Positions 25,175 to 50,573 of a stretch of 60,491 bases of DNA are shown here, in pieces; position 1 is the stretch's first letter; the number at the start of each line of letters is the position of its first letter. Source of the stretch: a virus. The notes under the pieces are model-generated. The model searched no databases. It had not been told where the DNA came from and was given only the letters and a program-made list of their open reading frames with translations. The stretch covers positions 1 to 60,491 of the IMG/VR virus record IMGVR_UViG_3300028835_000602; one strand, 5' to 3'. The position numbers were made by a program, and so were the translations under genes.

Positions 25175-27889
25175 ATGGATCTGATGGCGAAGATAGATAA
25201 GAAGAGCGGTGAGGCCGACATCACGGTCTCGATAGTAATCCTCACCCGGAACAACCTTCCGATCACAATCGACTGCCTGATGGCGGTGACCGAAACGCTG
25301 CCTGATGGCGTGGAAGCCGAGATCATTGTGGTAGACAACCACTCGACCGATGGGACCCGGATGTGGCTGGCATGGTTCGGATCGATGTACGCCAATCCGG
25401 AGACGAACCCCCACCCGACGAAGAAGATCAGGCTCCGACAGATCCTTTTGGACCGGAACTACGGGTTCCCGGCCGGCTGCAACCGCGGCTTCCGGAAGGC
25501 GAAGGGCGACGTGGTGGTATTCCTGAATAATGACGCGGTCGTTACGCCTGGCTGGTTCGAGGAGCTGCTGACTCCCCTGATCTACGTCCCGGAGGCCAGC
25601 TTCACGGCACCGGTGAGCAACTTCAGCGGGGGGAACCAGCAGGTCAAGGCCCCGTACACTAACCAGGAGCAGATGCTGAAGTTTGCAGAGGAGAACCTGG
25701 GAAAGAACCACAAGAAGGCGGTGGCATCGTGGATGGTGACAGGCCTGTGCCTGATGGCGCAGCGGGACTTCCTCCAGGAGCTGGTGGGGTTCCACGTCCC
25801 GGCCGGCCAGCTGTTCGATGAGCGGTTCTTCCCGGGAATGTGGGAGGACAACGATCTGTGTCTCCGGGCTCGGCTGAAGAGCCGGCAGAGCCTGGTGTGC
25901 CAGGGGGCGTTCGTCCATCACGAGGGATCGAAGACGATCAGCAAGTTGGAGATCACGCCGCGGGAGCTGTTCGAAAGGAACCAGCGGAAGTTCCGGGAGA
26001 AGTGGCAGAAGGAGTTCCCGGCGGAGGACAAGATCGTGGCGATGCTCCGGGTAAAGAACGGGATCCGGCACATCCGAAGGTACTTCGAATCCCTGGAATG
26101 GGTCGACGAGATCGTGGTGCTGGACACAGGATCGACGGACGGGACGATCGAGGTGGTCGAGGAGAACCTGAAGAGAAACGGCGGGAAGGTGGCGGCCTTC
26201 AACCGGTCCCGCTTCCGGGACAAGTCGTTGCAGGAATATAAGGAGCGGCAGTTCCTCCTGGAGATGGCACAGAAACGCAACCCGACGTGGATCGTCCGCC
26301 AGGATGTCGACGAGGCCGTGGAGCTGAAGATCCGGGACAAGCTCCCGCTGATGCTTCGGCCGCTGGACCCGCAGACCCTCTGCTGGCAGTTGCCGATGAA
26401 GACCTTCTGGCGGGGGGAGAAGAAGTACCGGATAGACGGGGACTGGGGCAAGATGTGCCCGATGGTCCTCTTCCGGAACATGCCGGGGGATAAGCTCTTC
26501 GACAACAAGCACCCCCAGGGATTCCACACGCCGACGGTCCCGGTCTTCCAGTCGGGCAACGTGGGATTCGTCAACGTATCGATCCTCCATTACGGCTACT
26601 CGAGCTACCGAGAGGCCCAGAGGAAGCATACCTGGTACGTGAAGACGGACACGGAGAAGCGAAGGGGGGCGATCGGCGGGAGGGGCAACTACTCGCACCT
26701 GGTGGACGAGAGTGGCCTAAAGCTGCTTGACTACCATCCGGACGGGGGGATCAGCCTTCTGATGATGGCGAGGGCCAACGAACTCGAGGGCGCCGCCAAG
26801 GTGATCGAAGCGGTGGCCCCGTTCGTTGACGAGATCATCCTGGTTTATACGGACAACCAAGTAGAAGGTGTCGCTACTGACATACTGGAGATAGCTATCA
26901 AAGCGGCATTGCTTGAATATACCGGATTCTCTAAGCTCCCGATTCTGAGGGTTTACAAATATGACTGGAACGACGACTTCTCGGCCGCCCGGAACTTCGG
27001 CCTGGCGAAGTGCACCCGACGGTGGGTGATGTACCTGGATCCGGACGAGGAGCTATCATCCCAGGACCTGGGAAAGATCTCGGCGGTGACCGAGAGGGAC
27101 GAGACGATCATCCATATCTTCTCGGTGCTGAACCTCTTCGACGATCCCGGGGAAACCCTCAAGCCGCGGGCGAACATACAGGAGTCGATCAGGTTGTTCC
27201 GGAACATGCCGGGGAAGATCTACTTCGCAAACCTCATCCACGAGACGCTATGTGACGCCCTGGAGAAGATAAAGGGGGGACCCCCCCCACCCGGGCGCCC
27301 CGGAGTTCTGGTGAGGCACAAGGGGTATTTGGCGAGCCAGGAGGACATGAACCGGAAAATGTACCGGTATGCGCAGTTGAGCATGAAATGGGCGGAGCAG
27401 GCCCCGAACGACAGCCGGCCGCTCTACAACCTGGGGCTGCACTATCTGGATCTTGACGATATCGACACGGCCCTGGACTACTTCGAGCGGGCTCGGAAGA
27501 AGGACGACGGAAAGCTGTGGCAGGTCAACCAGGCCCTGATGGGGATATATCTCCGGAACGGCCAGGTGCTCGCCGAGGAGACGATGAGGAATATGCCGGA
27601 GGGCCATCCCCGGGTCGAGCAATTGAAGAAGATCGTGGAGATCCTGGCGGAGAATGTCGGGGAGGTCCAGCACGTGATAAGGGAGGTCCCGGATGGCGAC
27701 AGCAACTCTAAGGCTCTACGACAAACAGGTGCAGGCGCGACTGCGGAAGTCGGCAAAGCGGGCGGTGACAAAATCGATCAGGCTGGTAAACAGGCAGTTC
27801 ATAAGAAACATCAGCCTGACGGATCACTCGCTAAAGGAACTGGCGGACATGGGGCATCCATATCGCCCCGGGGGAAACCCGCCGCATAG
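25175..27889 (+). CDS. triple GT2-family glycosyltransferase with TPR repeats
   Basis: 904 aa. Three GT2-type domains in tandem. Domain 1 (~15-285): VSIVILTRNN, VVDNHSTDGT, FLNNDA. Domain 2 (~288-510): VAMLRVKNG, LDTGSTDGT, RQDVDE. Domain 3 (~525-740): LLMMARANE, DDFSAARNFG, YLDPDEEL. These motifs hold the sugar-nucleotide and metal ligands. TPR-like repeats follow (~750-850: RPLYNLGLHYLDLDDIDTAL). The last ~66 residues overlap the next gene by 197 bases and look like out-of-frame sequence, so an ancestral stop was probably lost. It would glycosylate protein or polysaccharide in the cytoplasm. Its place among head-tail genes suggests a virion target. Confidence 0.85.
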   Translation: MDLMAKIDKKSGEADITVSIVILTRNNLPITIDCLMAVTETLPDGVEAEIIVVDNHSTDGTRMWLAWFGSMYANPETNPHPTKKIRLRQILLDRNYGFPAGCNRGFRKAKGDVVVFLNNDAVVTPGWFEELLTPLIYVPEASFTAPVSNFSGGNQQVKAPYTNQEQMLKFAEENLGKNHKKAVASWMVTGLCLMAQRDFLQELVGFHVPAGQLFDERFFPGMWEDNDLCLRARLKSRQSLVCQGAFVHHEGSKTISKLEITPRELFERNQRKFREKWQKEFPAEDKIVAMLRVKNGIRHIRRYFESLEWVDEIVVLDTGSTDGTIEVVEENLKRNGGKVAAFNRSRFRDKSLQEYKERQFLLEMAQKRNPTWIVRQDVDEAVELKIRDKLPLMLRPLDPQTLCWQLPMKTFWRGEKKYRIDGDWGKMCPMVLFRNMPGDKLFDNKHPQGFHTPTVPVFQSGNVGFVNVSILHYGYSSYREAQRKHTWYVKTDTEKRRGAIGGRGNYSHLVDESGLKLLDYHPDGGISLLMMARANELEGAAKVIEAVAPFVDEIILVYTDNQVEGVATDILEIAIKAALLEYTGFSKLPILRVYKYDWNDDFSAARNFGLAKCTRRWVMYLDPDEELSSQDLGKISAVTERDETIIHIFSVLNLFDDPGETLKPRANIQESIRLFRNMPGKIYFANLIHETLCDALEKIKGGPPPPGRPGVLVRHKGYLASQEDMNRKMYRYAQLSMKWAEQAPNDSRPLYNLGLHYLDLDDIDTALDYFERARKKDDGKLWQVNQALMGIYLRNGQVLAEETMRNMPEGHPRVEQLKKIVEILAENVGEVQHVIREVPDGDSNSKALRQTGAGATAEVGKAGGDKIDQAGKQAVHKKHQPDGSLAKGTGGHGASISPRGKPAA

Positions 27890-30977: not shown

Positions 30978-33900
30978 ATGGATGAACTGATCGCGGAACT
31001 AATCGGGACGGTCTCGATAAAGGGACTGGAGAAGACCGCGGCCGACATTAACAAGGTCGCGCAGAATCTCCGGAAGCTTTCCAACCAGACCGGCCAGCAG
31101 CTGGGAAAGCAGGAGAACCGCTATCGCTCCTGGTCCCAGCGGATCAAGGGCTTCGCCGAAAAGAACGGTGCCGCCCTGCGATCCATGGGCCGCTACCTCA
31201 CCGTCCTGGGAGCAACCCTCACCGCACTGGTTACCAAGTCGGGCCAGCTTTTCGTCGCTTATGAGAAGGGCGCGTCCGACATTTCCACCCTTTTGTCCGG
31301 TGGGCTGACGGAGATCTCCGGCCAGATGGCGATTTTCGACCAGGGGATAAAGCAGCTCTCCGTCGACTTCGATCAGACCACTGACAATCTCCAGAGGGGC
31401 CTGTACGACATCCTCTCTGCGTCGATTGCCCCGGCGGATGCGCTCCAAGTGCTGGCGGTGGCAAGTGAGGCGGCGACTGCCGGGCTGACCTCTGTCGGGG
31501 TGTCGGCCGATGCCCTGACGACCATCCTCAACGCCTACCAACTGGAAGCCTCCCAAGCCACCGAAGTCAGCGATAAGCTGTGGGCGATTGTCAAGCGGGG
31601 GAAAGTCACCTACGAAGAACTTGCCGGGAGCATCGGGCTTGCCGCGTCAACGGCGGCCGTTGCCGGGCTACGCTTTGAAGAACTCGGAGCCCTGATCGCC
31701 ACCGCCACCCGGGCGGGGGTGAGAAACCGGATCGCCATGACGGGGGCACGGTCCACCCTGCTTGCCTTCCTCAAAAACACCGACGAGCAGAAGGAAGCCG
31801 CCCGCAAGTTTGGATTCGAGCTGAACGAGGTGACTCTGGCGGCTGAGGGGCTTGAGGGAGTTATCAAGAAACTGGCTGGGGCAAACGACCTGAACCGGGC
31901 GGCGACTGCCGCGGAGATCGTCGAGATTTTCCAGAACCGCCGGGCCTTGAATGTCCTGGCCCCGGTCCTCCAGGACGTCGCAGGTTTCACGAAAGACATC
32001 GCTTTGCTGAATGACTCGGCGGGGCTCTCCGCGCTCGCTTTCTCGAAGCGGGCGGATGACCTGGGCTTCCAACTCGGGCAGCTTTCCAAGCAGCTGAAGA
32101 TACTGATGATAGATTTCTTCGAGCCGCTGGTTCCCCTGATTAGAGGTATCGCCGACGCTATTGGTGGACTCCTGAAGTGGTTCGAGAATTTGAACGCGGG
32201 TATGAAGGGGGTAATCGCAACGATCACCCTGCTCTCGGGGGTGTTGCTGACGCTGACTGGAACCCTGGCATTTCTCCTCCCTGGTCTTCTCAAGTTTGGG
32301 GCATTACTGTCTGGGCCAATCGTGATCGGGATAGCCGCCGCTGTAGCTGTGCTCGTCGGGGCGGGGGGTCTGATAGCCGCAATCAGCGCAGCGAATAGCG
32401 AGTTCGAGGATGCGGGAAAAAATGCGTCGGAGTTTGCGGCGCGGCTTAAACAGACAGTGGCTGAGTATGAATCGACGCAAAAGAGGATCGAGCACCTGAT
32501 CTCAAAGTATGACGAGCTGAAGCTGAAACTGGCTGAACAGGAGAAGGGGACGGACGATTATATCAAGACGCAGAAGGAGCTAAAGAAGACTATCGACGCA
32601 ATTCTGAGAATAGTTCCGGATGCGGGGGGAGCGTGGAACGACTACGGGGTCATCATCGACATCGACAAGAAGAAAGTCGAGGAGTTCACCGAAGCTCAGA
32701 AAGAGAACCTTAAGATCACCCAGGAAATCGCGTCGATTACATCGGAAATCACCGCCCGCAGGCTCGAAGAAAACAGGGAGGCCAGGGAGGAGGAACGAAA
32801 GCAGGTCCAGGCCGACATCGAATTTTATACCCAGCAACAGGCTGCATTGAGGGCCAGGCTGGAGGCAGCGACAGTCCCAGGCCAGCCCCTGGAACTGATC
32901 CCCCCGAAGGCGACGATCGACAGATACAAGCTGGACATCCTGGAACTTGATAAACGGCTGAACCCGCTTAAGAAGACACTGGCCGAGCTGAATAAGGAGG
33001 GCAAGGAACATGAAGCGGCGTTACTGAATATGGCGTCCGGCCTGAAATTCATGTCCGATCAGGGGAGAATCTCAACAGCACAGCTTAACACCACCCTCGA
33101 TTCACTTCGAGGACTCCGGGCCGCATACAACGGATTGGTTGCGGGGGCCATCGAGCCGACGAAGACATCAATCGACATCCTCGGCGAAGCCTTCGCCAGG
33201 AGCAAAAAGGAGTTTCCAGACTTCAGGGCATACATCGACGACGTGCGGGAGGCCAGCCGGGCAACGATCAACTGGGGTGAGGTCGCCGGGAAGATCGGGA
33301 AGGAAATGGCGGACCTCGAGGCCGAGTTGGAGACCCTGTGGGAAGCGGGGGATTTCGAGGCGTTCTTTAAGAAACAGGTGGCATGGCTGGAGCTCCTGAA
33401 ACGCCAGAATAGCGCAATCACAGAGCAGGGGGACGAGGTTAAGAAGCTGGCGAAGGTAATCGACGAGACGGCCCAGCGGATGCTGGAGTTCGAGGGCTTC
33501 TCGATCCAGTCGCTGATCACCTACCTCGAGCTGCAGCGGGACAAGTTCGAGCAGGGATCGAACGAGTGGCTGGCCTACGAGCAGCTGAAGGTTAAATATA
33601 CTGACGAGGCAGCCGCGCAGATCATCCAGATCTGGGGGAACGTCACGACGGACTTCAAGGCCGGGCTGAGCGATATGCTCCAGGCGGGGCTCCAGGGATG
33701 GGACAACCTGGGGGACGCAGTGGACGACTTCGGGAAATCGATGGTGGCGTCCCTCCGCAAGGCGTTCGCAGACTCCATAATAGAGAAGCTGGGATTCGAC
33801 AATTTATTCAAGGAGAACATCCTTGGGCTTGAGGGGATACTTGGAGGCTTCGGACAATCAATCGCCTCGACATTTGGCGGTATCTTCTCCTCTATTGGGG

Positions 33901-36329
33901 GTGGCGGAGCTGGAGTTGGGGCGACTTTTGATTTAGCTTCATCTGGGATCACTGGGGCTGGAGAAGCAGCTGAATACACTCTGGGGGAATTGAAAGAATT
34001 AGGAGCTACTGTTAGCGAAGTAGGAGGGGAAACGTGGGTTGATTTAACGAATACTGGCTTGGTTGAAGCTGGAGAGGCGGCTGAATATACCACCGGAGAA
34101 CTTCAAGAAATGGGGATTGCCGCCAAGGAATCGAGCTCTTCATTCGCTTCGATCCTCCCTCCAGTCGCTGCAGTTGCATGGGCTGTCACCAACCTTGTAA
34201 CCAATATCGAGGGCCTTAAAACAAAATTCAAAGATGGTAAGATTGAAGCTCGTGATTTCACTACAGCACTTGGCGAGATTGCAAGTCCCGTAACCTCGCT
34301 TCTCCCGGATATGGGACGGCTGGATGAGGCTATCAAAGGCATGGCAGCGGGCTTTGCTATCCTGGGACCTCCCGGCGCAATTATCGGAGGATTGATCGGG
34401 GCCTTCGGGGGTGCCGTAGGAATCAAGCATGGCACAAGCGGACTGGAAGAACTCGGCCTGGCAATGGATAAAATTGTTGAGAAGGGCGATCAGTTTGCAG
34501 AACAGACGGTTGCCCGGCTTCGCCAGCTAACGCATGGGGAGAGAGGTGTCTTATCTGAAATAGCTGACGCCGAACATCGAGGAGGCGGGGAACTACTGGA
34601 AGTCCTTGAAATGAACTTCGCCGGTCGCCAGGCTTGGTTTAATAAGTACATCGTCCAAAGTGAGGCATTCTCGGACGCTCAGCTAAAGCAAATCCAGGAT
34701 ATGCTCGGCCTCTATGAGAACGCGCAAGATCGCCAGGTGGCACAGGAAAGCGAGGCGTTTGAGGCATCACTGCAATCAATGGGGACTTATGTATGGGAGT
34801 GGGCTCAACTAAATCGCCACCAACGAGATGAAATTGGCGGATGGGAAGAAGCCTTCAAAGAAGCGACTGATAATGTCAAAGCAAACGGAGGTGATTTCCG
34901 AGAAGCATTCATAGAGGCACTAAGAGGATTGCCGGATATCACTGATGAGAGCATGCAGGCTTTGCTTGATGCTTTCGATCAGGCCAGCGGCACATTTGAG
35001 AAGAGCAAATTATTCACCGGTGGAATAGACCTGGGAACGAACGACTGGAGGGAATGGTCAGATGGAATCGCTACCGCCGTTAAATTAGCAGGATCAAATA
35101 TCAAGACTTTTACCGGGGATATTGAAGGCGTTATTGACCAATGGTTAGCAGGAGAAGAATTTGATCTTGAAGAGGCGTTGCTCCGGATTCCCGGAATGAC
35201 ACGCGATCTTGCAGAGAGTTTCAAGCAAGAAGCCGAGGCACTAAAGGACCAAGAGCTAACGGACTTCGGATTCAGTGATGAGAATATCGCTAACCTCGAA
35301 AAATCCATGGCAGAGGTTGAAAGAATCGTCTCGGAGAGCGGGGGGCTGGAGGGTTTCCGGGAGAGATTCAGCGCGGAACTCGGTGGACTGGGTGACGCCA
35401 CACGACAAGAAGGACGGAAGCTCGGACTTTTATTCAGCGAAGGATTCGATATTGAAGGTGGTCTCAGCGATATAGATTTATCAGAGACCTTTTCCCGTAT
35501 TCAATCTGAGGCATCGACTGCCGGATATGACGCAGGAGCTGCCTACAAGGAAGGATTCGAGGAGGGAGCCAGCGGTTCCGGGATTCTTGGAGATGTAATG
35601 TGGAGTATGGCAGTTGTCCAGGAGGCGATCAATAACTTCTCTAAATGGGGAGAGGAGATTGGCAAGGAATACAAGGAAGGCTTCGCCAAGGAAGCTGAAA
35701 TAGGAGACCTTACCGGGCTCGATATTGATAGCGAGATAAGGAGAACCGGGAGGGAGCAGGAGGATATAGATGACAGAGGGTTAATCGAAACCCTTCAAAG
35801 GGTTGGCGGCTCTTTAGATGGGGTAGATGAAAGTACAGGAGAAGCCACTTCATCCATATTCTCGATGGCAGAGGAGATAGATAGCACTAATGACTTCTTC
35901 GCCTTACTGAGGAGCTTGCTCGATCAAACGGCTCTCTCTCTCAATATTTTCAATAGCAAACTTGGAGCTACCCCGGAGCCGGACCCCTTCGGCTCTACGA
36001 AGCCAGGAAGGGGAATCGGGGCCGGTTTTTCCCTTGACAACCTTCGGGAGATCGTGGCATCTTTGGCTCAGGCTCCCCGGATACTGGCAGGAGCTTTGAC
36101 CGGCGTCCCCCTACCAAGAGCTGGAACCCTGCGCGCGCCGGAGATCCCGGGAGGACTCGGGGGAAGGGAAATAACCGTCCGACAGGTGAGTGAATATCAT
36201 CTGCACTTTGACAGCTTTGAGGACGAGGACCGCGTTGTGAAGGTGGTCCGGGACAAGCTGAGGCCAGCCCTCGAGGATGATCTGCAGAGGACCGGCCGGA
36301 CCCTGGAGGATCTGCTGAAAAGGACCTGA
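30978..36329 (+). CDS. tape measure protein
   Basis: 1783 aa, the longest gene. The N-terminal TP901-type tape measure core (~90-350: YEKGASDISTLLSGG, SVGVSADALTTILNAY, GLRFEELGALIATATRAGV) is followed by membrane-like segments (~400-465, MKGVIATITLLSGVLLTLTG) and long helical regions. At roughly 0.15 nm per residue it predicts a tail near 270 nm. Bases ~33880-35960 are clearly AT-richer than either side, and a ~20-residue repeat lies in that part, suggesting an acquired segment. The ribosome site is poor (no AGGAGG), unusual for this genome. Confidence 0.85.
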   Translation: MDELIAELIGTVSIKGLEKTAADINKVAQNLRKLSNQTGQQLGKQENRYRSWSQRIKGFAEKNGAALRSMGRYLTVLGATLTALVTKSGQLFVAYEKGASDISTLLSGGLTEISGQMAIFDQGIKQLSVDFDQTTDNLQRGLYDILSASIAPADALQVLAVASEAATAGLTSVGVSADALTTILNAYQLEASQATEVSDKLWAIVKRGKVTYEELAGSIGLAASTAAVAGLRFEELGALIATATRAGVRNRIAMTGARSTLLAFLKNTDEQKEAARKFGFELNEVTLAAEGLEGVIKKLAGANDLNRAATAAEIVEIFQNRRALNVLAPVLQDVAGFTKDIALLNDSAGLSALAFSKRADDLGFQLGQLSKQLKILMIDFFEPLVPLIRGIADAIGGLLKWFENLNAGMKGVIATITLLSGVLLTLTGTLAFLLPGLLKFGALLSGPIVIGIAAAVAVLVGAGGLIAAISAANSEFEDAGKNASEFAARLKQTVAEYESTQKRIEHLISKYDELKLKLAEQEKGTDDYIKTQKELKKTIDAILRIVPDAGGAWNDYGVIIDIDKKKVEEFTEAQKENLKITQEIASITSEITARRLEENREAREEERKQVQADIEFYTQQQAALRARLEAATVPGQPLELIPPKATIDRYKLDILELDKRLNPLKKTLAELNKEGKEHEAALLNMASGLKFMSDQGRISTAQLNTTLDSLRGLRAAYNGLVAGAIEPTKTSIDILGEAFARSKKEFPDFRAYIDDVREASRATINWGEVAGKIGKEMADLEAELETLWEAGDFEAFFKKQVAWLELLKRQNSAITEQGDEVKKLAKVIDETAQRMLEFEGFSIQSLITYLELQRDKFEQGSNEWLAYEQLKVKYTDEAAAQIIQIWGNVTTDFKAGLSDMLQAGLQGWDNLGDAVDDFGKSMVASLRKAFADSIIEKLGFDNLFKENILGLEGILGGFGQSIASTFGGIFSSIGGGGAGVGATFDLASSGITGAGEAAEYTLGELKELGATVSEVGGETWVDLTNTGLVEAGEAAEYTTGELQEMGIAAKESSSSFASILPPVAAVAWAVTNLVTNIEGLKTKFKDGKIEARDFTTALGEIASPVTSLLPDMGRLDEAIKGMAAGFAILGPPGAIIGGLIGAFGGAVGIKHGTSGLEELGLAMDKIVEKGDQFAEQTVARLRQLTHGERGVLSEIADAEHRGGGELLEVLEMNFAGRQAWFNKYIVQSEAFSDAQLKQIQDMLGLYENAQDRQVAQESEAFEASLQSMGTYVWEWAQLNRHQRDEIGGWEEAFKEATDNVKANGGDFREAFIEALRGLPDITDESMQALLDAFDQASGTFEKSKLFTGGIDLGTNDWREWSDGIATAVKLAGSNIKTFTGDIEGVIDQWLAGEEFDLEEALLRIPGMTRDLAESFKQEAEALKDQELTDFGFSDENIANLEKSMAEVERIVSESGGLEGFRERFSAELGGLGDATRQEGRKLGLLFSEGFDIEGGLSDIDLSETFSRIQSEASTAGYDAGAAYKEGFEEGASGSGILGDVMWSMAVVQEAINNFSKWGEEIGKEYKEGFAKEAEIGDLTGLDIDSEIRRTGREQEDIDDRGLIETLQRVGGSLDGVDESTGEATSSIFSMAEEIDSTNDFFALLRSLLDQTALSLNIFNSKLGATPEPDPFGSTKPGRGIGAGFSLDNLREIVASLAQAPRILAGALTGVPLPRAGTLRAPEIPGGLGGREITVRQVSEYHLHFDSFEDEDRVVKVVRDKLRPALEDDLQRTGRTLEDLLKRT
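33945..34115 (+). repeat. duplicated 20-residue motif inside the tape measure gene
   Basis: GITGAGEAAEYTLGELKELG (from 33945) recurs as GLVEAGEAAEYTTGELQEMG (from 34056), 111 bases apart in the same frame. The core GEAAEYT.GEL is shared and third codon positions have diverged, so the duplication is not recent. Confidence 0.7.
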
Positions 36330-36742
36330 TGAGTGTCGGACCGAAAATCGGAAAGGAACCGGACATCATCGACCTGACGGGGACTGGCGCCCTGGTTACT
36401 TTGAACTGGGTACCCATACGGGACACGCATCAGTTGGAAGCGGGCAACTCCAGGGACTACAACAAGGGCTGGATCCTGGAGGCGACGGTGGACTGGACGA
36501 GAGAGGCGCTGGTTCCGATGTCCTTCTCCGACGATCTGGCGGACCTCTACAGCCTAACGTGCGACGACACGATTTTCTTCTGGCCGTTCCCGGACAAATA
36601 CCCCGGTTCGTTCTATAAGGTGAAGCTGGTGGGGAAGTGGGACCTGAACCCCCCCCGTGGGCTGACGGGCATGGGGCTGGCCGGGAGGATGATGTTAGTG
36701 GGGAAGGAAGTCTACGACGAGAAACCGAAGTTCCTGACCTAA
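36329..36742 (+). CDS. putative distal tail protein
   Basis: 137 aa; ATG overlaps the tape measure stop (ATGA). Beta-rich with conserved-looking aromatics (DDTIFFWPFPDKYPGSFYKVKLVGKW). Its place right after the tape measure fits a distal tail or tail-tip component. Confidence 0.5.
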   Translation: MSVGPKIGKEPDIIDLTGTGALVTLNWVPIRDTHQLEAGNSRDYNKGWILEATVDWTREALVPMSFSDDLADLYSLTCDDTIFFWPFPDKYPGSFYKVKLVGKWDLNPPRGLTGMGLAGRMMLVGKEVYDEKPKFLT

Positions 36743-36753
36743 GGAGGACGCAA

Positions 36754-37050
36754 ATGCCTAACGTGAAACCAACGAGGGACGTGGTCATCGTGAAACCGGT
36801 GGCCCCGGAGGAAGTGAGCAAGGGCGGGATATTCATCCCGCAGACCGGATCGGATGACCAGAAGTACGGCAGCCGCGCGATGGTGGTGGCCTGCGGGCCG
36901 AAGGTGAAGAGTGACCTGAAGCGCGGGCAACTGGTGATCCATAACCGCTACGCAGGGAGCGAGTTCAAGTTCGGGGATGAGCGGCTGCTGGTGATGAGGG
37001 AGGAAGACATCGTCGCCATGCTGCACCCGGAGGAGGGGGAAGAGACGTGA
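36754..37050 (+). CDS. groES-like: GroES-like co-chaperonin
   Basis: 98 aa starting at ATG 36754 behind AAGGAGGACG. Cpn10 fold signatures: PTRDVVIVKP at the start, EEVSKGGIFIP (the mobile loop region), VVACGP, then LVIHNRYAGSEFKFGDERLL and the end VMREEDIVAML, matching the '..VLV.REEDILA..' ending of GroES. It would cap host GroEL to fold phage structural proteins, as T4 gp31 does. No GroEL is encoded here. Confidence 0.9.
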   Translation: MPNVKPTRDVVIVKPVAPEEVSKGGIFIPQTGSDDQKYGSRAMVVACGPKVKSDLKRGQLVIHNRYAGSEFKFGDERLLVMREEDIVAMLHPEEGEET

Positions 37051-37277
37051 GACCGATGCCCTTCCTGGTTCCATTCCTGTGCCCCCATTGCGGGCAGTTG
37101 ATCAGCTATTACATCACCCGCAATTTCCCGTTCGGCCACGACGAGGATGTCGGCCGATTCGAGAAGGAGGACAAGAAGGACAGCCTGGCGTGCTCCCGGT
37201 GTGGAGAGCCGATCGACATTAAGATAACGATCAAAATAAAAAAGGGGGAGAAAATCCACGAAGGGGGTGAACAATGA
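37047..37277 (+). CDS. zinc-ribbon protein, 76 aa
   Basis: GTG 37047 overlaps the co-chaperonin stop; ATG 37056 is the alternative start. Two zinc knuckles, CPHCGQ and CSRCGEP, about 38 residues apart. Lys-rich C-terminus. Its stop overlaps the next ATG. Confidence 0.6.
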   Translation: MRPMPFLVPFLCPHCGQLISYYITRNFPFGHDEDVGRFEKEDKKDSLACSRCGEPIDIKITIKIKKGEKIHEGGEQ

Positions 37278-38374
37278 CAGCACCATCTATTAGGGGCTAT
37301 ACATCGGATCCGCCCTGGGGGGAGAACAGAATCGCGGATACTGAGGACAAGGCATTTAAGCTCGGGAATACGACACCCGGAGGAGCAGGCGTCAATGACT
37401 TCGAGCTTTATTGGTTCAACCGGGGCTATGCGAAGCTCTACGACCCTCGGTTAACCATAATCCCGCACCCGACGATGGATCAAGGAAGCGCTGCCGATAC
37501 AACTGTGGTAATGCGGCTCGGGGAATATTTCTCGATCCCTCCCCCAACTCATATCCTCCCCACTGACACGCCTGCTACGCCCGCGAATACGGGCGACTGG
37601 GACGTTGTCGGAAAACGGGGGCCGATGCAGGATCCATTCCTGTCTTTCGAGAATATCTTTAAATGTGGGATAAGGTGGGGACCTGGGATAAATGCAACCC
37701 CCGGCTGGATCCGGAAGGCGTTTCAGTGGGACGGGAGCTTCAACCCGGACACCTGGGACCTGATCTACATGCCGCTGTCTGATCTCCACACCCCGGATAT
37801 GACGTGGTATGACCCCTGGGTGAAAGTAGATAACGGGTGGGATGTTGAACATTGGCCTGATGTTTCAATGTGGCCGCCGCCAGCTACATCTTTAACGGGT
37901 TACTTCTTGCAGATGTCTAACCCTTTTGGAACTTTCGGGGGTCTTTTTTTACACGATAACGCGGGAAAGCCTTGGTACGATAGCGTTTCAAATTCAATTG
38001 GATACTATGCAACCGCCCTTGTTAACATCAGAAATACTTCTGGACCAGGTTATGAGTTCAGAATAATTATCGATGATGGAACTTATAAGTTCGACGTGAT
38101 AATCAAGGAAACAGAGGTAACTACTTCGGGGGTCAGTGGTGCCTCGCCTTATGCGGTTTCCCTGGCAGGTGATTACGTCGAAGTGGGGGTAGGAGTACAG
38201 GGGACAGAAGCAACTGTTTATATCGACGATACCGCCAGGATAACTGGAACTTTATCAGTTGCATCTACGGGAAAGGCAATAAAATTTGGAATTTTAAGCC
38301 AGGCTGTTTTCGGACATACGAATCTGGCTTCGATCAAATACTACCTCGGCGGCAAGACGGAGCCGACGGGTTAA
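37274..38374 (+). CDS. putative tail-associated protein with C-terminal beta domain
   Basis: 366 aa. The N-terminal ~190 residues are GC-rich with many Trp/Pro (phage structural look). From ~37850 the DNA becomes AT-rich and encodes a jelly-roll-like domain (YEFRIIIDDGTYKFDVIIKE, then ATVYIDDTARITGTLS) that resembles a LamG or carbohydrate-binding domain. This suggests a receptor- or glycan-binding module grafted onto a tail protein. Confidence 0.55.
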   Translation: MTAPSIRGYTSDPPWGENRIADTEDKAFKLGNTTPGGAGVNDFELYWFNRGYAKLYDPRLTIIPHPTMDQGSAADTTVVMRLGEYFSIPPPTHILPTDTPATPANTGDWDVVGKRGPMQDPFLSFENIFKCGIRWGPGINATPGWIRKAFQWDGSFNPDTWDLIYMPLSDLHTPDMTWYDPWVKVDNGWDVEHWPDVSMWPPPATSLTGYFLQMSNPFGTFGGLFLHDNAGKPWYDSVSNSIGYYATALVNIRNTSGPGYEFRIIIDDGTYKFDVIIKETEVTTSGVSGASPYAVSLAGDYVEVGVGVQGTEATVYIDDTARITGTLSVASTGKAIKFGILSQAVFGHTNLASIKYYLGGKTEPTG

Positions 38375-38569: not shown

Positions 38570-38886
38570 GGGGGTGAAACGGGATCGACGGTTAGATAAA
38601 TAAGACTTGGCGCATGTCGAGGTTGGCCGGGGGGCCTCGTAAAAACCCGGCCGAAGAAGTAATTGGCGAAGCAATGCCATTAGCAGCTTAGACAAGTCTA
38701 AGCCGGGGACCGATCGACGCCGATAGATTATATCCCCGCAGGGATCGGTTGACTTTTGGGGGAACCGTTTTCAAAGCAAAACGGGAGCCTTTGAAGAAGT
38801 AAGGCCGTGCCGCCTTAAGAGCACTAAGCATGTAGTGCCAACCTTATTTGCTATTCCGGACGGGGGTTCGACTCCCCCCACCTCCA
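38570..38886 (+). ncRNA. ssrA: transfer-messenger RNA (tmRNA, SsrA)
   Basis: One-piece tmRNA of 317 nt. The acceptor stem GGGGGTG (38570-38576) pairs with CACCTCC (38879-38885) and has the G3-U pair used by alanyl-tRNA synthetase; the discriminator is A38886 and CCA is not encoded. T-arm: GGGGG TTCGACT CCCCC (38862-38878). Pseudoknot PK1: CGAGG 38618-38622 with CCTCG 38635-38639, and GGCCGGG 38625-38631 with CCCGGCC 38646-38652. Twelve bases later the tag frame begins: GGC at 38665 to TAG 38689-38691, encoding GEAMPLAA. CTAAGCATGTAGT near the 3' end matches the conserved pre-T-arm region. It would rescue stalled ribosomes and tag proteins for degradation using host SmpB. Confidence 0.93.
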
Positions 38887-38893
38887 TAAAAAA

Positions 38894-39082
38894 ATGCTAA
38901 CTGACATAGAAAAACTGATCGAGGCGGCCAAGAGTAAGAGGATAAGGTTCTTAAAAGTTCGGGGTGCCCTCAAATCGTCAACCATTATCGGCGAGAATTA
39001 CGAGACCCCGGAGCTGGACGCAAAGATCATGTCTTTCGACACCCTGATCGAGACCCTGGAGACGACAATCAAAAATGCCTAA
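38894..39082 (+). CDS. hypothetical protein, 62 aa, directly after the tmRNA
   Basis: ATG 38894 lies only 7 bases after the tmRNA 3' end, with AAAAAAA in front and no ribosome site. Helical (MLTDIEKLIEAAKSKRIRF). If the tmRNA is cut out by processing, the mRNA for this gene would be essentially leaderless. It overlaps the next gene by 8 bases. Confidence 0.5.
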   Translation: MLTDIEKLIEAAKSKRIRFLKVRGALKSSTIIGENYETPELDAKIMSFDTLIETLETTIKNA

Positions 39083-42000
39083 CCCCATCCTCAATCCATC
39101 CTTCGAACTCGACCCCGCCCTCGTCAACTGGACCGTGACGGCCGGCGGGGCTGACGTTTCCCGGTCAGCCAGCTTCGCCTACGACGGGACCTATGCCCTC
39201 CGGATGATTAATCTTACCACGCTTTATTCCCAACACTCGATTACGTCCGATCAATTCGCGGTTGACGGCTCGAAGCTCTACCGCTCACAGATCTTTCATC
39301 TGACGGAGGACGTCGCCGGCGGGGATCCCACCCGGATCAAGTACTTCTGCTTCATCAACTGGTATGATTCAACCCCTTCTCTCCTCGGGCTGACCTGGAT
39401 CGTGCAGTTCGAGCGGAACCCATCCTTCGACACCTGGTACAGGTACGAGACGTACCTCATCAAGCCTCTGTTCGGGGCGGTGAACGCTGAAGTCGTGATC
39501 AGAATGGCGGACGACGGGCCGACGGGGAACTACGGCTTCGCGGACCTGATCTCGCTCGAGGAGATGAGTGACGATGAGGAGACCGGGAACCGGATCACGG
39601 GGAATATCAACACGCTTGTCGAAGTGGCCGACGCCAGGATTACCGGGAGGATCCTCCGGAGGATGATCTGGTCGACCACGCCGACGTCCGAGTTCGACGA
39701 CGAGGAGGCCCGGACCTGCGGCCAGAGTCCGGCGATCAGGGTGCTGGTCTTCCACGACTCCTTTCCGGACAATCCCATCCCGGGCCCTTCCGGACAGCTG
39801 AAGTACATTGACGTGACGGACCGCCTGATGACGCCGGGGGTGATTTACCGGGAGATGACGAAGGGAGTCGGCCGCCCACCCTCGCTGGTCACCTCGGACA
39901 TGTTGCTGACTTTCGACGACAGCGACCGGTACTTCAACGACCGGCAGGAGGGCTCGCTATTCTACGGGCTGGACTACGCCGGGTGGAACCAGGACCGGCG
40001 GGTGGAGGTGTGGGCCGGCTTCAACTACGCCAACGTTGCGGAGGTCCTCCGGAAGGCGAAGTTCTCGATAAAAAAGCTGGTCCCGAATGCGGAGACCGGA
40101 AAAGCCGTGATGCACTTGAAGGACGGGGTGGCGAAGGCGTACGAGGAGAAGATCGGTGTACCGTCGGACGAGACGGTGGACGGACTCGGCCGCCAGGTGG
40201 GGACGTCCCGGCCGCTGGAGTACCCGCGGGACGTGGTCGACGCCTCGAACGACAAGATCGTAGTCCGGACAGACACGGCGGGACCCCCGGCCGGATGGCA
40301 GAACATCTTCATCCCCCGGGGGACTTGGGGAAAGGAGAAGCGGGCGGAGCTGCTGCAGCTGAACCTGAACGAACATGGGGTCTACAAGGCGGCCGGCTAC
40401 AGCTTCGCGGTGACCTACGACGGGGAGAACGACCAGTTCATCATAATCCTGAGCGGTGGAGCCCTGGGCCTCGAGCTGGACGGCGCCGCGAGTACCGCAG
40501 ACCCCCTCTACGGGTTCTCGAACATAACCCACGGAGGACCCGGGACCTACGAGATCAAGTCCGACCTGGTCCCGGTGACGGCGACGGAGACCTTCAAGAA
40601 CGTGATCGAGGATCTGGCGGTCGCCCAGGGGGGGCTGGGATTCGACAACCTGGACATCGAAGACCTGGCGCTGACCTTCCGGAACGTGGCACTCTACAAC
40701 ACGAACGTAGGGACGGCGATCCAGGACATTGCAGAGGTGGGGGTGGGATCCCTGTGGACGGAAGGGATGGACGTGCTGGTTTTCCGGGCCTTCGGCTCGA
40801 TGCCGACGGAGGTCTACCGGGACTTCCGGGGGGACACGAACCGCCAGGACATGGACTATATCGGCCAGGACACCGAGACACAGGTGAGGGAGGTTCAGGT
40901 GACGGGAAGGTACGGGGACGTATCGGTGGCCGAGAGCGGGGGGAGTGTGGGGCAGGTTGTGACGATCGACAGCGGGATCGCAGAGACCCCGGCCCAGGTG
41001 GAGGCGATGGCAACCGGCTACCTGGCGCAGTACAACCTGGCGCCGGCCGGGGTGGAGCTGGACATCGAATACTTCCCATCATGCGAGCCGGGGAAGATGG
41101 TGAGGATCTTCGACAATGCAAAGCCGGATGATCCGATCCTGGGACACGTGGTCCTGAACAATCTGAACCTGGCGAACAAGACGGGGCGGATCGTCGTCAA
41201 GCCGTTCAGCCGGGTGAAGGTATGGGCGACGAAGGAGGACTGGGACGCGTTCGATGCGGAGAGCGGGAACCCCCTGATCGTGCCGACGGGGACCAGCGAG
41301 TTGCAGCTATCACTTCAGGATACGGCCGCAGCCTGGCGCGAGTACGTGGTGGACGCCGGCGCCGGCAAGACGGCGAAGTGGCTGGCGTTTAATAAGACGG
41401 ACGATGACGACTCCCTGCTTTTTTTCCATGACCGGTTCGACACGACTCCGGTGGGACGGTACACGGTCCTGCCGGCGGAGATCCTCTACGAGACGCTGAC
41501 GGGCTACCTGAGCTACGACGCGGAGGAGAAGCAGGCAGTCCTGGCGACGGAGTACGCAACCACGTCGGTGATCCTATTGGTGAACGGGATCAGTGTGGCG
41601 GACGTGAAATGCGAGCATGAGATAATGGTGACGGCGGTGATCGGGGAGGGGATAATCATCGGACAACTCCGAAGAGCAGATGCGGACAACTTCTATATCA
41701 CCGCCTGCCGGCGGGCCGGGGAGTCCCCGCGGATCGGGAAGATGGTGGCGACGGTGAGGACGGGGGATCTATACAAGCCGGACACAGAGTCCTACTACCC
41801 GCTGAATACCTGGCTAACGGTGACACAGCAGATCGCGAGTTCGAACCTGGCGTATCAGGTCGACCCGGGGATAGCGGAGGGAACGGCCCAGGACACGGAC
41901 CTGCCGGCCGCAGGGGGGGTCTCCCAGGGGATCCGGGGGGCGACGGCGGTGATGAGGGCGATCCGGCTCTCCCGGTTCACGAGCTCCCCCGGGACAATCG

Positions 42001-42173
42001 CCTACTCCTTCTGGACGGCGGCAAATCCCGGAGGGCCCTGGACGCCGGCGGCGAGCTTCGCGGCGGCCCCGGACAGTCGACTTTTGAAGACCCGAGTGAC
42101 GATAAGCCGGGCGACGAAATATGACTCTTTAGGGCTTGCGGATAATATGAGCGTGAACTATAATATCAACTGA
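39075..42173 (+). CDS. tail hub / tip protein with N-terminal carbohydrate-binding domain
   Basis: 1032 aa. Residues ~1-165 look like a CBM4/9-type jelly roll (NPILNPSFELDP, ... YRSQIFHLTED). The central part (~235-720) resembles siphovirus tail-hub proteins: YIDVTDRLM, LLTFDDSDRYFNDRQ, a long beta region, then MATGYLAQYNLAPAGVELDI and GKMVRIFD. The C-terminal ~270 residues are another beta domain. It would sit at the tail tip and help contact the host glycan surface. Confidence 0.65.
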   Translation: MPNPILNPSFELDPALVNWTVTAGGADVSRSASFAYDGTYALRMINLTTLYSQHSITSDQFAVDGSKLYRSQIFHLTEDVAGGDPTRIKYFCFINWYDSTPSLLGLTWIVQFERNPSFDTWYRYETYLIKPLFGAVNAEVVIRMADDGPTGNYGFADLISLEEMSDDEETGNRITGNINTLVEVADARITGRILRRMIWSTTPTSEFDDEEARTCGQSPAIRVLVFHDSFPDNPIPGPSGQLKYIDVTDRLMTPGVIYREMTKGVGRPPSLVTSDMLLTFDDSDRYFNDRQEGSLFYGLDYAGWNQDRRVEVWAGFNYANVAEVLRKAKFSIKKLVPNAETGKAVMHLKDGVAKAYEEKIGVPSDETVDGLGRQVGTSRPLEYPRDVVDASNDKIVVRTDTAGPPAGWQNIFIPRGTWGKEKRAELLQLNLNEHGVYKAAGYSFAVTYDGENDQFIIILSGGALGLELDGAASTADPLYGFSNITHGGPGTYEIKSDLVPVTATETFKNVIEDLAVAQGGLGFDNLDIEDLALTFRNVALYNTNVGTAIQDIAEVGVGSLWTEGMDVLVFRAFGSMPTEVYRDFRGDTNRQDMDYIGQDTETQVREVQVTGRYGDVSVAESGGSVGQVVTIDSGIAETPAQVEAMATGYLAQYNLAPAGVELDIEYFPSCEPGKMVRIFDNAKPDDPILGHVVLNNLNLANKTGRIVVKPFSRVKVWATKEDWDAFDAESGNPLIVPTGTSELQLSLQDTAAAWREYVVDAGAGKTAKWLAFNKTDDDDSLLFFHDRFDTTPVGRYTVLPAEILYETLTGYLSYDAEEKQAVLATEYATTSVILLVNGISVADVKCEHEIMVTAVIGEGIIIGQLRRADADNFYITACRRAGESPRIGKMVATVRTGDLYKPDTESYYPLNTWLTVTQQIASSNLAYQVDPGIAEGTAQDTDLPAAGGVSQGIRGATAVMRAIRLSRFTSSPGTIAYSFWTAANPGGPWTPAASFAAAPDSRLLKTRVTISRATKYDSLGLADNMSVNYNIN

Positions 42174-48225: not shown

Positions 48226-48298
48226 GGGGCGGTACGCTTAGTGGTAGAGCGAGGGGACAGGATCCTCACACGCGCTGGTTCGAATCCAGTCCGCCCCA
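48226..48298 (+). tRNA. tRNA-like gene with abnormal anticodon arm
   Basis: 73 nt. Perfect acceptor stem (GGGGCGG 48226-48232 with CCGCCCC 48291-48297), discriminator A, perfect T-loop TTCGAAT on stem GCTGG/CCAGT, and D-arm GCTTAGTGGTAGAGC. The anticodon arm is poor: AGGGG/CCTCA has an A-A mismatch and a G-U, and the loop ACAGGAT has C instead of the near-universal T at position 33. One extra base lies between positions 9 and 10. Formal anticodon AGG, but identity elements for proline are absent. CCA is not encoded. It could be a decaying tRNA, a decoy, or a processing signal. Confidence 0.65.
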
Positions 48299-48915: not shown

Positions 48916-49218
48916 ATGCCAGAACCAATGAAGACGAGCGATAAGCTAAAGGCCGTCCTCTGCGATCCGGAGGGCAAGATCGTGATCAAGGGGAGTAACG
49001 GCGATAAGACTCTCCTGAAAGAGGCGATCACAGAGGTTGAGGCTCAGGAAAGATTCAATAGCGAGGGAGTGACACCCGAAAGGCTGAGGGAGATCATCGA
49101 GCAGATCGACCGCGACACCCTGTCGCCGGAGGAAAGGGAGGGCTTCTGCTTCCTTCTCCTCCGAAGAATACTTCAAAAAGGAAATCCAAGACAGCAACCA
49201 AAGGAGGTAGGACCATGA
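48916..49218 (+). CDS. hypothetical protein, 100 aa
   Basis: AAAGGAGGAGAACG precedes the ATG; the stop overlaps the next start (ATGA). Small alpha/beta domain with an acidic helical C-terminus (TPERLREIIEQIDRDTL). Not recognised. Confidence 0.55.
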   Translation: MPEPMKTSDKLKAVLCDPEGKIVIKGSNGDKTLLKEAITEVEAQERFNSEGVTPERLREIIEQIDRDTLSPEEREGFCFLLLRRILQKGNPRQQPKEVGP

Positions 49219-50573
49219 TAATAGGATTCGCGGATCAGGTCCGGCTGCCACGCTGTGAAAAGATACGGCTTGGCGTGAAGTTGACCGGAAAGAAAAAGTG
49301 CTGGAGCTGCAAGGGCAGCGGAGAACACAGCGGGCGTCCCTGCAGGAGATGCTACGGGACGGGCAAGTCACAGTTCCCGAGAGAGACGGACTTCTTCGTG
49401 TTGCCATACGAGAGGGTGGCAGCGAAGGACGCCGATCCGGACCTGAAGGAGGCTTTCTTCGGGGAGTCGGTAAGGCTGACAACGGAGGGGGAGAGGATCG
49501 CGAAGGTCTTCGGGAAGACCCCCCGGGAGCTGACGGTGATGATCCCGCTCGAGGACAAGGAGTTGTTCTTCTCCCAGGCCCTCAAACGGTGGACGGCGAC
49601 CGGACTCAAATGCCGAAGCATCCACCAGCCCGGAAACCAGCGGGCCTTGAGCCTCGCGGATGACGGGAGCGGATTCGAGGAGATCGACTGCCCCTACCAG
49701 AAGTGCGACTACTACCAGAACGGGGAATGCGGGGAGAATATCAATCTGATGATATTGCTCCCCGACGTTGGAATACAGCACGGGGTCTACCAGATTGATA
49801 CTGGCTCTTACCATAGCACCCTCGATCTGGAAACGGACATTAGATATATCCGGGACGTTGTAGTACAGATTAAGGCCGGCCGGCCGTGGATCTCTATGAT
49901 ACCACTGACGCTGTGGAGGGAGCCGAAAGAGACCCATGCCCTGGGGAAGACACAGATACACTACTGCATGCGGCTGAGGATCGAGGACGATGTTCTGGAG
50001 AACCTGACGCCCAAATCCCTGCCGAAGGCCCCCAGGCAGTACCGCCTGCAGCGGGGGGACCCCCTGGACATTGAGGAAGACATTAACCCGGCCGTCGTCT
50101 CAGAGCTCGTTCTGGAGCTCAAAAGGAAGCGCGACGCTGGCAAAGCAGGGGAGGTCGCCCCCTCAGCAGCCCCAACCAGCCAGGCCGCCATAGACCAGAT
50201 ATGGGCGAAGATCGAAGAGACCTACAAGGAGGTTCCCGGAAGCGATCCGAGCCTTCCGGTCTGGATGAAGATGAAGGCCAGGTACGAAAACCATCCGGAG
50301 ATTCTGCTGGACTACCTGGGGGAAGTGCTGGCGTGGCACAAGAACGGCAACCCGACGGACCAGGTGCCGCATCAGCCTAAGACCCCGGAGGAAGAAAGCC
50401 GAAAGGTGGCGCCGGCATTCCCCCCGGAGGAGAAGGCCCCCGCCCCGTTTCCGGAAGACGATGAAGAACCACCGGCCGCCGGAGCAGCTGCCCGCAGGAG
50501 CCCGGAGGGAGGCGGAGGAGGAGAACCGGAAGAAACCAAAAAAGCCGAGGAAGACGAACCGTCACTACTTTAG
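49215..50573 (+). CDS. Gp3-like (recombination directionality factor family) protein with DnaJ-type zinc finger
   Basis: 452 aa. The core matches the Gp3-like family by pattern: GESVRLTTEGERIAKVFG, CPYQKCDYYQNGECGENINL, ILLPDVGIQHGVYQIDTGSY, then PWISMIPLTLWREPKE. Ahead of it (residues ~29-55) lies CWSCKGSGEHSGRPCRRCYG, a DnaJ-like CxxCxGxG zinc module not usual for this family. The C-terminal ~130 residues are disordered, Pro/Glu-rich. No integrase is present, so a recombination or ssDNA-related role in replication is more likely than control of excision. Confidence 0.65.
   Translation: MIIGFADQVRLPRCEKIRLGVKLTGKKKCWSCKGSGEHSGRPCRRCYGTGKSQFPRETDFFVLPYERVAAKDADPDLKEAFFGESVRLTTEGERIAKVFGKTPRELTVMIPLEDKELFFSQALKRWTATGLKCRSIHQPGNQRALSLADDGSGFEEIDCPYQKCDYYQNGECGENINLMILLPDVGIQHGVYQIDTGSYHSTLDLETDIRYIRDVVVQIKAGRPWISMIPLTLWREPKETHALGKTQIHYCMRLRIEDDVLENLTPKSLPKAPRQYRLQRGDPLDIEEDINPAVVSELVLELKRKRDAGKAGEVAPSAAPTSQAAIDQIWAKIEETYKEVPGSDPSLPVWMKMKARYENHPEILLDYLGEVLAWHKNGNPTDQVPHQPKTPEEESRKVAPAFPPEEKAPAPFPEDDEEPPAAGAAARRSPEGGGGGEPEETKKAEEDEPSLL

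Follow-up and report, generated by a model that had tools for sequence, protein, structure and literature searches.

The window, a 60,491-base phage record analysed over its whole length, encodes a complete one-piece tmRNA (ssrA), an RNA that releases ribosomes that have become stuck and labels their incomplete product for degradation. That the gene is real, complete and phage-encoded is well supported: ARAGORN made a single call in the whole window, this tmRNA with the tag GEAMPLAA, and Infernal matched positions 38570-38889 to the Rfam family RF00023 over model positions 1-374, i.e. its full length, with 126 bits (E 7.1e-49) against a gathering score of 47 bits. A chance match is excluded. 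The two methods agree on the complete one-piece molecule of the original prediction, which had proposed a covariance search as its check.

Architecture of the tmRNA

Stems and pseudoknots were read off the sequence and verified by script, and each pseudoknot was compared with 5000 dinucleotide shuffles of its segment (Table 1). The acceptor stem pairs throughout and contains the G3-U70 alanine identity pair, which together with the T-arm confirms the tRNA-Ala-like acceptor described earlier. The one pseudoknot located previously, PK1, proved exact in its coordinates: stem 1 pairs 38618-38622 with 38635-38639 and stem 2 pairs 38625-38631 with 38646-38652, both entirely by Watson-Crick pairs. 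To these parts we add three further H-type pseudoknots, for a total of four, the hairpin P5 over the stop codon, and the helix P2. PK2 is weak when taken alone because of its shuffle count (166 of 5000).

The tag frame also lies where it had been placed, 12 bases past PK1: the resume codon is GGC at 38665, exactly 12 nt 3' of the pseudoknot, and the frame ends in LAA and a TAG stop. In E. coli, the resume codon likewise follows PK1 by 12 nt, and U85 and A86, at -5 and -4, help to set the frame, A86 being essential (PMC2481249); the phage tmRNA carries the equivalents of both, a U at -5 and an A at -4 (GTAATT before GGC). CCA is not encoded, the 3' end reading CCTCCA-TAA, which implies CCA addition by the host.

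Table 1 Features of the tmRNA and its neighborhood.
Feature	Positions	Strand	Evidence
Complete one-piece tmRNA (ssrA)	38570-38886	+	ARAGORN; Rfam RF00023; 317 nt without CCA
Acceptor 5' strand GGGGGTG, partner CACCTCC (38879-38885)	38570-38576	+	7/7 pairs: 6 Watson-Crick and G-U
Helix P2, 5' strand, partner inside 38827-38860	38591-38617	+	duplex -19.6 kcal/mol; 9/2000 shuffles as good
PK1, CGAGG/CCTCG and GGCCGGG/CCCGGCC	38618-38652	+	same-size pseudoknot in 4/5000 shuffles
12-nt spacer GAAGAAGTAATT, PK1 to resume codon	38653-38664	+	sequence
Tag frame GGC GAA GCA ATG CCA TTA GCA GCT TAG (GEAMPLAA-stop)	38665-38691	+	ARAGORN, sequence
Hairpin P5 around tag stop codon, 8 bp	38686-38703	+	8/8 Watson-Crick
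PK2, GGGGA/TCCCC and CCGATC/GATCGG	38705-38748	+	166/5000 shuffles
PK3, CCGTTTT/AAAACGG and CAAAG/CTTTG	38765-38793	+	6/5000 shuffles
PK4, TAAGGC/GCCTTA and GTGC/GCAC	38800-38824	+	4/5000 shuffles
T-arm, 3' acceptor strand and discriminator A	38855-38886	+	RF00023 match, sequence
Tape measure protein gene	30978-36329	+	PHROG 1533, E 1.6e-43
Phage GroES co-chaperonin gene, between tape measure and tmRNA	36754-37050	+	phrog_3188, E 1.2e-17; Pfam Cpn10 on longer ORF
366-aa orphan ORF directly upstream of tmRNA	37274-38374	+	without PHROG, Pfam, phage or PDB match
62-aa orphan ORF, start 8 nt after tmRNA	38894-39082	+	no Shine-Dalgarno

Genomic context and relatives

The window contains genes for a ParB-like protein, terminase large subunit, portal, major head protein, tape measure, exonuclease, and DnaB helicase, and is a divergent tailed phage; the virus belongs to an unclassified siphovirus-like lineage known solely from environmental DNA. 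Phage genes flank the tmRNA on both sides within the 60-kb record, so the gene does not sit in a host flank. It is encoded on the same strand as the late, structural genes, 2.2 kb past the tape-measure gene. A location between tail genes, as first described, is likely by position; the tape measure demonstrates it on the upstream side only, and the immediate neighbors (37274-38374 and 38894-42173) are without assigned function. For the 366-aa upstream ORF, searches of PHROG, Pfam, phage, and PDB sequences gave no match, and the predicted structure of its protein, with a pLDDT of 29, was too poor to be informative. Downstream, the 62-aa orphan is followed by one of 1032 aa. The 195-nt stretch upstream of the tmRNA is hairpin-rich, folds no better than its shuffles (z -1.3), and matched no RNA family, including riboswitch families. 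No promoter-like site was found near the tmRNA with the limited range of promoter types searched, and sites of other types are possible.

Several further features of the window were recorded. Before the start of the 62-aa ORF, the tmRNA end reads CACCTCC, not a Shine-Dalgarno sequence (38886-38894), and excision of the tmRNA would make the mRNA of this ORF nearly leaderless. With the longer GroES ORF (36637-37050) as query, the nearest named-phage matches were Bacteroides phages, at 37% identity. A tRNA-like match at 48226-48298 (41.8 bits, Rfam) has no ARAGORN call and, by eye, an irregular anticodon arm (ACAGGAT loop, C at position 33); it is perhaps a degenerate or unusual tRNA. Two 89-nt stretches far apart in the genome (15405-15493 and 45879-45967) are inverted copies with 83% identity, and the 904-aa protein encoded at 25175-27889 carries TPR-like repeats as well as two stretches of glycosyltransferase family 2.

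Relatives of the virus are few. IMGVR_UViG_3300024432_000032 (39,606 bases) shows 100% identity in the two compared stretches of 21,182 and 13,525 bases and has the same tmRNA in the same arrangement of phage genes; it is therefore the same virus and provides no independent evidence of conservation. Capsid and terminase searches of IMG/VR returned this identical contig and nothing else, and the named-phage relatives of the portal and capsid proteins, at up to about 30% identity, are spread across many hosts. Among 47 IMG/VR contigs with the conserved tmRNA 3' end, 21 received a standard tmRNA call from ARAGORN, 2 a permuted call, and 24 no call. Many of the 21, with bacterial-type tags such as ANDESYALAA, may be host flank. 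Three other IMG/VR records hold complete tmRNAs with the unusual tags GKQPSKAEPMKLAA, GKNNVSFAITSYRVAA, and GKNKVSFAITSYRVAA, and those with GKNNVSFAITSYRVAA and GKNKVSFAITSYRVAA also hold tRNA genes.

We searched for GEAMPLAA, in any codons, in 84,980 prokaryotic (bacterial and archaeal) species genomes and found no contig encoding it; in IMG/VR the sole other contig was the identical record, whose recovery indicates that the search pattern works. It follows that, within the genomes searched, the tag is phage-specific. A search with the 5' domain returned just two deltaproteobacterial-type MAGs, with tags ADDYAYAVAA and ADDYKYAVAA and tmRNAs of 358-361 nt, whose middle parts differ strongly from that of the phage. 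When the tmRNA was compared by BLAST with 297 genomes of the phylum of these MAGs, matches covered almost solely the T-arm and 3' end. Thus no near-identical bacterial ssrA was found by tag search, 5' domain search, or tmRNA comparison, and the tag, 5' domain, BLAST, capsid/terminase, and portal/capsid searches did not identify a host. The GE start of the tag would suggest Bacteroidota, but such a host is unlikely in view of the G+C content of 57% and the strong Shine-Dalgarno sequences that precede many of the genes.

Possible roles of the phage tmRNA

The gene is probably a functional phage tmRNA that works with host SmpB to rescue ribosomes late in infection, the tagged products then undergoing ordinary ClpXP-type degradation. 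Ribosome rescue is the sensible default role. The tmRNA would be transcribed together with the late structural genes and excised by host tRNA-processing enzymes, after which host enzymes would add CCA and alanine and host SmpB would bind the RNA. In the infected cell it would then rescue stalled ribosomes from broken or non-stop mRNAs, and the stalled peptide would gain (A)GEAMPLAA, whose LAA end should bring ClpXP-type degradation. SmpB was not found in the 60-kb record, so the phage tmRNA would need that of the host; none was found either in five other tmRNA-bearing IMG/VR records, one of them the near-identical record, all of which may be fragments.

In favor of function we count the full-length RF00023 match and ARAGORN call, G3-U70, the T-arm, the four pseudoknots, P2, and P5, together with the phage context, the precedent of other phage tmRNAs, and the 12-nt spacing and the U-A at -5/-4, both shown by experiment to affect frame and activity (PMC2481249). 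Against it we count that no promoter-like site of the types searched was found nearby, the unencoded CCA, and the identity of the second record. Although the middle part is very different from that of the two bacterial tmRNAs compared, the stems have stayed paired, which suggests that the structure has been under selection.

Rather than serving ordinary turnover, the short tag, unlike host tags, could shift protease or adaptor handling in favor of the phage, a reading we consider unlikely. It would be in keeping with the finding that GEAMPLAA occurs in none of the 84,980 species genomes and in no IMG/VR contig besides the identical record, and with its lack of an E. coli-type SspB-binding motif. 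The tag is also short, at 8 aa, the commonest length among tmRNA tags being 10 aa and some having only 2 aa (PMC11915505). However, the LAA end recognised by ClpX is retained, and because tag sequences vary freely among tmRNAs, an unseen tag is weak evidence for altered tagging; that GEAMPLAA changes proteolysis is speculation. The fuller version, in which the late-made tmRNA tags stalled proteins for different handling by host adaptors and proteases and so redirects protein turnover in the infected cell, seems rather improbable.

It is equally unlikely that the gene is a host ssrA gained by imprecise excision or recombination and unused by the phage. Phages often integrate at ssrA and gain pieces of it (PMC9004378, PMC3203893), and ARAGORN called no tmRNA in 24 of the 47 IMG/VR contigs that carry a tmRNA 3' end; but the present copy is full length and intact with all stems maintained, no recombinase or repeated 3' end was found in the window, and the bacterial searches returned no near-identical gene. 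It is very unlikely that the RNA acts chiefly as a decoy, binding up host SmpB or alanyl-tRNA synthetase and so inhibiting host trans-translation. There is a precedent in phage DS6A, whose TLD-only RNA has been proposed to act in this way; tmRNA is inhibited by a similar molecule that consists of a TLD alone (PMC4131195, PMC11915505), and the failure to find a phage SmpB would fit. A decoy could nevertheless do without a resume codon in the right place, an open frame for the tag, an LAA end, or four pseudoknots, all of which are kept. The retention of spacer, frame, LAA end, and stems under divergence, seen in a single lineage, would argue for selection and against both an unused passenger and a decoy.

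Finally, we rejected the reading that the tmRNA 3' end is an attP for integration into host ssrA, which is extremely improbable even though ssrA is a common integration site and the window has a Gp3-like recombination directionality factor domain at 49215-50573 (PF18897, E 2.1e-27): searches of the 60-kb record, which may be incomplete, turned up no tyrosine integrase, resolvase, or large serine recombinase, attP usually lies beside int, the tmRNA 3' end is single-copy in the window, and for such a site the 3' end would suffice without the whole gene. With no integrase found in this record and no second 3' end, the gene is not a leftover of an attachment site either.

Comparison with known tmRNAs

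Phage tmRNAs are an already known kind of gene; specific here are the tag and the site in the tail module instead of a tRNA cluster. A 2021 survey found tmRNA in 402 of 18,146 phage genomes, about 2% (PMC9004378), which makes the earlier statement that few phages carry ssrA roughly right; the carriers are not confined to large mycobacteriophages, small tmRNA-bearing siphophages having been published (PMC12656738). Proposals for the role of phage tmRNAs include rescue, the recycling of host proteins, and the manipulation of translation (PMC4131195, PMC9004378, PMC12656738). The present gene is a structurally complete tmRNA outside the large tRNA-rich phages in which phage tmRNAs were first reported. 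Consisting of a single gene of 317 nt whose tag is easy to recognise, it would be convenient for testing the role of phage tmRNA if the host were found. If the altered-tagging reading were true, a phage tag would redirect protein turnover in the infected cell.

Like the bacterial one-piece tmRNAs of RF00023, the phage tmRNA has a TLD with G3-U70, P2, PK1-PK4, P5 over the stop codon, an LAA tag end, the 12-nt spacer, and the upstream U-A. It differs from them in its length (358-361 nt in the two compared), its unencoded CCA, its phage location, and its 8-aa tag unseen in the species searched. A full ssrA in a tailed phage is shared with the Bxz1-like and Wildcat mycobacteriophages and Bacillus phage G (PMC4131195); subcluster C1 mycobacteriophages are about 155 kb with some 30 tRNA genes, whereas the present record contains, in about 60 kb, a single weak tRNA-like match and, compared with the Bxz1-like phages, Wildcat, and phage G, has its tmRNA gene downstream of the tape measure. 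The Bradyrhizobium elkanii phages are described as having a tmRNA, no tRNA genes, and no annotated lysogeny genes (PMC12656738), features in which they resemble the present record; their host is different and no sequence link is established. The OM43 phage Melnitz also has a complete viral tmRNA, proposed to serve the upkeep of hijacked translation, but it is two-piece and lies beside a glutamine riboswitch (PMC9004378), whereas the tmRNA described here is a one-piece molecule without a riboswitch family match upstream.
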